Assembly (NCBI GenBank): GCA_024763245.1
Contig: JANTFW010000016.1
Span: forward strand, 1-32,271
Direction of reading: 5' to 3'
DNA: 32,271 nucleotides
Source: Flavobacteriaceae bacterium
GTDB taxonomy: Bacteria; Bacteroidota; Bacteroidia; Flavobacteriales; Flavobacteriaceae
Shown here: positions 364-10,478 of the stretch, piece by piece
Layout: the number at the start of each line of letters is the position of its first letter
Position numbering within the stretch: the stretch's first letter is position 1
Program-made: the position numbers and the translations under genes
The notes under the pieces: model-generated
Databases searched by the model: none
Seen by the model: only the letters and a program-made list of their open reading frames with translations
What the model was told of the DNA's origin: nothing

Positions 364-870
364 ATGAAACGCCAAACCTCTTATAGCCTACAAGAAGCTC
401 AACAAGTACTGGAGCATTTTTGTGCCTATCAAGAACGAACCCATCAAGAAGTGCAGCACAAACTCCGTGCTATGGGAATGATTCCCGAAGCGCAAGAACG
501 CATTATTTTGCACCTACTCCAACACAATTTTCTCAACGAAGAACGCTATGCCAAAGCCTTTTCCGGAGGAAAATTCCGTATTAAAAAATGGGGTAAAGTA
601 AAAATAGAGCAAGCCCTTAGACAAAAGGGTGTTTCGGCTGCCAATAGACAGCTGGCCTTACAAGAAATAGAAGATGATGCCTATCATAAAGCTCTGGAAG
701 AAGTGGCTATAAAATGGCTGAAATCTAAGCGATTGGTTCCTGAACCTACAACTACTTTAAAGGCTCATATTTTAGAAATACCCTATACGACCCGGCAAAA
801 ACTCATTCGGTATTTACAACAAAAAGGCTATGAGTTGGCACTTATCTATCGTTATATTAACGGGAGTTAG
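364..870 (+). CDS. recX: Regulatory protein RecX
   Basis: A 168-residue all-helical protein with the RecX plan: repeated three-helix units. The first contains a KLRAMGM-like segment and the family-typical HNFLNEERYAKAFSGGKFRIKKWG region at about residues 54-78; the second follows at KIEQALRQKGVS. RecX binds RecA filaments and limits recombinase activity in the cytoplasm. Length is normal for the family. The start is ATG at 364; the next in-frame ATG is far inside the conserved region. The last four codons and the stop (ATT AAC GGG AGT TAG) are the terminal inverted repeat of the 214-bp element starting at 856, so the native C-terminus was probably replaced. No recA is nearby; recX appears to be monocistronic. 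Confidence 0.9.
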   Translation: MKRQTSYSLQEAQQVLEHFCAYQERTHQEVQHKLRAMGMIPEAQERIILHLLQHNFLNEERYAKAFSGGKFRIKKWGKVKIEQALRQKGVSAANRQLALQEIEDDAYHKALEEVAIKWLKSKRLVPEPTTTLKAHILEIPYTTRQKLIRYLQQKGYELALIYRYINGS

Positions 871-1069
871 ATATAAACTATGTCAATACTTTTTTTGATA
901 TAGGACTGTAATTCCGATATTTTTTATTTTGAACAAAATGAAATGAAGTTGAAATTTTTAACTTCTCAACGTGAAGATTTCTCCATTCCAGTCGAAAAGA
1001 CAATGAACGTAACAACAAAACTCATAACTAGCTGATATGCAGTGTGTATTATGTAGAACTAACGTTAAT
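856..1069 (+). mobile_element. 214-nt MITE-like inverted-repeat element, copy A
   Basis: Begins ATTAACGGGAGTT (856-868) and ends AACTAACGTTAAT (1057-1069); the two ends are inverted repeats with 11 of 13 matches. It aligns without gaps to the reverse complement of 10174-10387 with 167 of 214 identities by hand count; the longest identical block is 23 nt (975-997). The interior (about 945-1000) can fold into an imperfect stem. TAT flanks both ends (853-855 and 1070-1072), a possible target duplication. It has no convincing ORF. I read it as a non-autonomous miniature element; a conserved structured non-coding element is the alternative. Confidence 0.7.
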
Positions 1070-1130
1070 TATAATAGGGACTATGATACATCTCGATTTC
1101 GTCGAAATACTCTAGCACCTTTAATTCTAC

Positions 1131-9572: not shown

Positions 9573-10178
9573 GTGACTGCTTCAACACATAACACCAAAG
9601 GTCATTTACACGGGCTTATCCTTATAGGAGGTGAAAGCAAACGTATGGGTCGGGACAAGAGCCTATTAGCCTACCACGGAAAACCGCAATGGAAATACTT
9701 ACAAGAACTCTTAGCTCCCAAAGTAGATACCGTTTTTGTCTCGGTAAGAACATCAAATCAGGTGGCTTATCCATATCAAATAAGTGATAAAATTCCGGGA
9801 TTGGGCCCTTTTGGAGCCCTACTATCTGCCTTGGAATTGTATCCGGAAGATTCTTTTTTGGTCTTGGCAACGGATATTCCTTTTATCGATAGAACACTTA
9901 TTGATATCTTACTTAAGAATCGGGATACATTAGGTCACGCAACCGCTTTGCAAGGCATAGGAAAACCCTATCCAGAGCCTCTAGTCTGTATTTGGGAATC
10001 CAAATCCCTACCCATACTTCAAGATTTATATAAACGAGGTATCTATAGACCTATTAAAGCCCTAGATGATATGACGGTAAAAACAATTCAAGTATCCGCA
10101 GAGTTATTACAAAATGCAAATACCTTGGAAGACTATAAAGCGATTAAAAATACATTGGATAGCCAAAAAAATAACTAA
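9573..10178 (+). CDS. mobA: MobA-like molybdenum cofactor guanylyltransferase
   Basis: A 201-residue nucleotidyltransferase with the MobA signature near the N-terminus: LIGGESKRMGRDKSLL (about 17-32), in place of the common LAGGxSxRMGxDK. Further family features are GLGPFGALLSAL (about 75-86) and the metal-binding LATDIPFID (about 96-104). MobA attaches GMP to molybdopterin in the cytoplasm. The start is GTG at 9573, 14 bases after der. No other molybdenum cofactor gene is in the window, so the substrate assignment rests on the family alone; related nucleotidyltransferases with other substrates are possible. Its stop codon (10176-10178) lies inside the end of repeat element B. Confidence 0.82.
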   Translation: MTASTHNTKGHLHGLILIGGESKRMGRDKSLLAYHGKPQWKYLQELLAPKVDTVFVSVRTSNQVAYPYQISDKIPGLGPFGALLSALELYPEDSFLVLATDIPFIDRTLIDILLKNRDTLGHATALQGIGKPYPEPLVCIWESKSLPILQDLYKRGIYRPIKALDDMTVKTIQVSAELLQNANTLEDYKAIKNTLDSQKNN

Positions 10179-10387
10179 CTTGAGCTTGATGATCTACACG
10201 CTGTATATCGGCTAGTTACGGGTTGTATTGTTACATTTATTGTCATTTCGACTGGAATGGAGAAATCTACACATTAAAAATTTAGATTTTTCTACTTCAT
10301 TTCATTTCGCTCAGGATGATAAATAGCCGAATTACAGTCCTATATTAAAAATAGTAATGACTCTGTTTATATCGAACTGACGTTAAT
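10174..10387 (-). mobile_element. 214-nt MITE-like inverted-repeat element, copy B
   Basis: The reverse complement begins ATTAACGTCAGTT (10387-10375) and matches copy A at 167 of 214 positions without any gap. The 23-nt identical block is at 10246-10268. Its left end (from ACTAACT at 10174) is more diverged from the terminal repeat than in copy A. The centre (10241-10320) holds facing arms TGTCATTTCGACTGGAATGG and TTCATTTCATTTCGCTCAGG that can form an imperfect stem. It follows mobA directly and provides its stop codon. With the hairpins at 10416-10430 and 10437-10478 it fills the gene-free stretch 10179-10497. Confidence 0.7.
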
Positions 10388-10415
10388 TATATCTCAACAA
10401 ACATTCCACAAACAA

Positions 10416-10436: not shown

Positions 10437-10478
10437 AAAAAAAAGCGCCGCTCTAAAATGCTTTTAGAGCGGCGCTTT
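10437..10478 (-). terminator. Strong intrinsic terminator of the ATP synthase operon
   Basis: A perfect 17-bp GC-rich stem (10442-10458 with 10462-10478) around loop TGC; on the minus strand it is followed by a run of T (A run at 10437-10444). It lies 19 bases after the atpG stop. The hairpin would also stop plus-strand transcripts coming from mobA, although the T run on that side is short. Confidence 0.9.

Follow-up and report, generated by a model that had tools for sequence, protein, structure and literature searches.

A family of ageing IS982-type miniature transposable elements in a Flavobacteriaceae genome

The window analysed here, a 32,271-nt stretch from the draft genome of a Flavobacteriaceae bacterium, contains two related stretches in opposite orientation, copies A and B, which are, with a probability of about 0.9, decayed insertions of a non-autonomous miniature transposable element (MITE) with 17-bp IS982-type ends that was moved in trans; the family to which they belong is one of ageing IS982-type MITEs. 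What was observed directly is the number of copies, their end sequence and target duplications, the empty site in one congener, and the same ends on IS982 elements in other genomes. According to the proposed mechanism, the element ends would be bound by a DDE transposase of the IS982 family, provided in trans, which would then move the 206-bp element, and insertion would leave a TA-rich target duplication of 5-8 bp. The copies in this genome were probably moved by an IS982 transposase that is now lost or missing from the draft assembly.

A repeat search of the window recovered positions 856-1072 and 10171-10387 as an inverted repeat pair of 217 nt, 78% complementary and free of gaps, as an earlier sequence-only reading had claimed for the two stretches. 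When the genome was searched with copy A as the query, copy B was matched at E=2.5e-48, which excludes chance. The earlier reading had delimited an element of 214 nt; the repeat pair is real, but the IS982 end rule, taken together with the way sister copies are duplicated at their targets, puts the element itself at 206 bp with AC...GT termini (Table 1), the outer ATTA/TAAT of the match being the target site and lying outside the element. The terminal inverted repeats of copy A extend over 21 nt with 76% complementarity and are better preserved in younger relatives, and its left end differs from TTAACGTGAGTTCGATATAA at two positions. The flanks of copy A agree at four of six positions and form no clean duplication, which has decayed or is absent. 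No open reading frame of at least 80 aa lies inside the 206-bp element.

Table 1. Coordinates of copies A and B, their component parts and the adjoining genes in the window.
Feature	Position	Strand	Basis or remark
recX	364..870	+	Pfam RecX; comparison with six congeners
Copy A, left target-site flank ATATTA	854..859	.	Flank comparison
Copy A, 206-bp IS982-type MITE	860..1065	+	AC...GT ends, family alignment, genome search; directly behind recX
Copy A, left terminal inverted repeat ACGGGAGTTAGATATAA	860..876	+	Part of 21-nt inverted repeat 856-876/1049-1069
Copy A, internal palindrome module GTCTTTTCGACTGGAATGGAGAAATCT	975..1001	-	
Copy A, right terminal inverted repeat	1049..1065	-	Inverted repeat 856-876/1049-1069
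Copy A, right target-site flank TAATTA	1066..1071	.	Flank comparison
mobA-like NTP transferase	9573..10178	+	Pfam NTP_transf_3; sequence
Copy B, left target duplication TAACTA	10172..10177	.	5/6 versus right copy
Copy B, 206-bp IS982-type MITE	10178..10383	-	Between mobA and atpG; orientation opposite to A
Copy B, internal palindrome module GTCATTTCGACTGGAATGGAGAAATCT	10242..10268	+	
Copy B, right target duplication TAATTA	10384..10389	.	

Seven copies of the family were found in the 2.28-Mb draft genome (142 contigs, 91% complete), namely A, B and those on contigs 44, 109, 24, 101 and 7, the contig-44 copy (C) being matched by copy A at the same E value as copy B. Six are complete, measuring 206 bp (A, B and C), 195 bp (contig 101, copy F), 306 bp (contig 109) and 328 bp (contig 24), and the last two (D and E) share roughly 100 bp of inserted internal sequence; the contig-7 copy is partial. 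All five complete copies other than A are bordered by a direct repeat of 5-6 bp that is of TATTTA type. It is exact in C (TATAG, 5/5) and on contigs 109 and 24 (TATTTA, 6/6 in both), where the rate expected for an exact duplication of at least 5 bp in random flanks of the same composition is 0.85%, and it contains one mismatch (5/6) in B (TAACTA/TAATTA) and F (TAAATA/TAAAAA). These clean repeats in the sister copies depend on placing the element boundaries at AC...GT, and the ends fit the pattern AC(N)6T (ACGTGAGTT), with the exception of copy C, which starts with AT. Two inverted copies lying 9.1 kb apart in the same window could also have arisen by plain segmental duplication of intergenic DNA that is not itself mobile; however, the copies on other contigs have exactly the same ends within different flanks, and five of the six complete copies carry their own short direct repeat. 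Shared ends and target duplications together refute this explanation, which retains practically no probability.

The family resembles bacterial MITEs, which are roughly 70-300 bp long without a transposase gene, in its size of 206 bp (sister copies reaching 306-328 bp), its terminal inverted repeats (21 nt in copy A, against 15-30 bp for such elements), its target-site duplications (exact in C, D and E, 5/6 in B and F) and its seven dispersed copies with common ends; the ends common to an IS982-family element, which define an IS982-type MITE, were found through other genomes of the family. Both the earlier proposal of a miniature transposable element and that of an already diverged, actively mobilized family are borne out by the terminal repeats shared with IS982, the target duplications, the empty site and the multiple copies. 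The search of the genome and its relatives that had been suggested as a check yielded the seven copies and, in other genera, mini-elements with the same ends.

The 3' end of recX (its last residues and stop, INGS*) extends into copy A, which accounts for the unusual end of this gene in the present genome, and the mobA stop codon TAA takes one of its bases from copy B. No element was found behind recX in any of six congeners, and in the closest of them (G006) recX nearly abuts the homologue of the Por-tail gene of the window, corresponding to an empty site for A. The Por secretion tail also belongs to the gene content that points to Flavobacteriaceae as the family of the window. A composite transposon formed by A and B was considered since recX and atpG adjoin in some congeners, and was dropped because G006 has recX beside the Por-tail gene without any element. 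Two other features adjoin the copies. Directly behind copy A, an unrelated dispersed repeat at 1138-1267, containing the inverted arms ACTCAGCTG/CAACTGAGTG, recurs on contig 17 (26727-26856, 82%) and contig 109 (4-124, 80%), and contigs 17 and 7 also carry shorter pieces of it. A strong hairpin resembling a terminator, its 17-nt arms perfectly matched, occupies 10442-10478 behind copy B, in the interval that separates mobA from the convergent atpG.

The link to IS982 comes from related genomes. With up to two mismatches, the end motif (ACGTGAGTTCGATATAA) is present in 45 of 299 family-level genomes, while a reversed control gave almost none, and in other genera it bounds both mini-elements of about 130-380 bp and insertion sequences of 1.0 kb. 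In several cases a pair of ends brackets about 1.0 kb that encodes a DDE transposase matching NCBIfam IS982; in the 1.0-kb insertion sequences with identical ends, intact transposases match NF033520 at E values of about 1e-73 to 1e-77. Starting independently from IS982 transposases, the motif was found to flank both sides closely in eight of the 22 loci examined, six of which have exact direct repeats of 5-8 bp. IS982 transposase matches also occur in 45 of the 299 relatives, and both ends and transposase coincide in 20 genomes, with 6.8 expected (Fisher p=1.4e-7). Published IS982 ends start with AC(N)6T and are accompanied by variable direct repeats (PMC7335449), a rule to which the end motif conforms. 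The search for an insertion sequence carrying ATTAACGnnAGTT ends, proposed from the sequence alone, was successful, but in other genomes: the present genome holds no intact IS982 transposase, only a remnant of 40 residues, and a direct parent was not found, the MITE being unlike known insertion-sequence ends past about 17 bp. The remnant, C-terminal in origin, is enclosed in a 226-bp inverted-repeat element with AACCCGTTTAGCGGTT ends on contig 60 (L116, 1422-1647), which may represent another MITE early in its formation. At a C12 locus with end-like matches, the enclosed gene is that of an ordinary 16S rRNA methyltransferase and not of a transposase.

The loci retrieved gave 35 distinct mini-elements with lengths of 151-382 bp, a few of them from the genome itself and its genus; 22 are bordered by an exact duplication of 5-8 bp, in most cases of the form TA...TA. 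Their interiors group into lineages common to several genera, and one genome (G065) combines an intact 1020-bp IS982 with about ten mini-elements of 202-209 bp. A second IS982-type MITE family, with ACCTGAGTTCGACCTAA ends and a length of 258-265 bp, occurs in the present genome on contigs 6, 19, 21 and 23 (L050, L054, L055 and L056) and at several contig ends, as well as in the congener G005. It is younger, since its copies are 92-98% alike, and its position at contig ends indicates that it probably breaks the assembly. It shares with the window family the type of ends and of duplication (TAATA, TAATAA), whereas its interior is unrelated and devoid of the GTCAT module.

Several mini-elements, from the present genome and from G065, G153, G207 and G076, carry this GTCAT..CGA-like module at a distance of 59-65 nt from one end. 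The GTCATTTCGA palindrome is also found inside same-genus mini-elements with unrelated ends, AAGCCGTCTCATAAGC and AGGCTGTCTGAAAA (L031, L032, L035, L036 and L037, in genomes G003 and G002). Its occurrence both in IS982-type MITEs across genera and in these elements raises the tentative, rather doubtful possibility that the element is modular, the palindromic cassette that begins with GTCAT(T)TCGA being a further mobile or functional unit, such as a terminator-like hairpin, carried along by MITEs that belong to different transposase families. The same occurrence under other ends would suit a palindromic repeat of the REP/RAYT type centred on GTCATTTCGA, to which the IS982-like ends are secondary. 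This is very improbable, as six of the seven pattern matches to the module in the genome fall within the MITE family and it is the outer ends of the element, not the module, that the target duplications flank.

The missing gaps between A and B had been taken to suggest, as one of two options, that length or fold is constrained. Over the remaining copy pairs 0.13 gap events occur per substitution, a rate at which about 5-6 gaps would be expected for A and B, and none was found; copy B and the contig-44 copy likewise align without gaps. The gaplessness of these three copies is somewhat unusual, yet it is no family-wide rule: complete copies range from 195 to 328 bp, so that length is not fixed and the gaplessness of A and B is a property of that pair. 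A strict length constraint is rejected, since related MITEs across genera differ by several indels, and even pairs of equal length gain from small compensating gaps, the pair from G065 and G153 rising from 57% ungapped to 74% with two 1-nt gaps. No signal of helical phasing with a 10.5-bp period was detected in MITE lengths (R 0.24, p 0.15), and a length period of 11 bp (p 0.008) is not claimed, because three periods were tried and the data are not independent. The target duplications of C, D and E are intact at 17 of 17 positions while the elements themselves differ by about 17-19%, which suggests that part of the divergence predates insertion and arose in active source lineages that filter out broken copies, although the duplication boundaries were picked for best match, which biases the comparison.

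A structured RNA or protein-binding element, with length and fold under selection and copies retained for a host function, is highly unlikely. In its favour, a length of exactly 206 bp recurs in copies A, B and C, which are about 80% identical, the B strand gives a better fold than shuffled sequences do (z -2.6) and the core helix (helix 5) shows little variation, but the other complete copies differ in length, strand A is no better folded than shuffles (z -0.5) and the element is missing behind recX in the congeners. The covarying base pairs proposed as a check did not rise above shuffle level (score 0.121, versus 0.111 in shuffles; 106 of 500 shuffles attain the same score), with a single base pair changed on both sides, in three sequences, and the covariation term of the consensus fold is unfavourable. 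An Rfam scan gave tRNA as the sole match and no family for the element. The consensus structure is a foldback of the entire element, as expected for any palindromic MITE, with no need of an RNA function.

Among known systems, the IS982-derived MITE of about 240 bp in Cardinium is the closest in kind: it is also gene-less, multicopy and mostly intergenic, with IS982-type inverted repeats in a Bacteroidota genome, although there 169 copies accompany the intact parent ISCca4 (PMC9769881), whereas here there are seven old, diverged copies; the comparison of the two is one of descriptions. The IS982 insertion sequences ISFba2, IS1187 and relatives, about 1 kb long in Flavobacteria, share with the window element the AC start, T at position 9 and variable duplications (PMC7335449), while the latter is 206 bp long and lacks a transposase gene. 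No earlier description of the window family in Flavobacteriaceae was found in the open-access literature, to which the search was confined. The family, spread across several Flavobacteriaceae-like genera, thus appears to be undescribed so far, the kind of element being known from Cardinium. The sole IS982-derived MITE found in the searchable literature is that of an endosymbiont, to which the present work adds a non-autonomous IS982-type family in free-living Flavobacteriaceae-like bacteria, with exact ends and a target preference that can serve the annotation of intergenic repeats in these bacteria.
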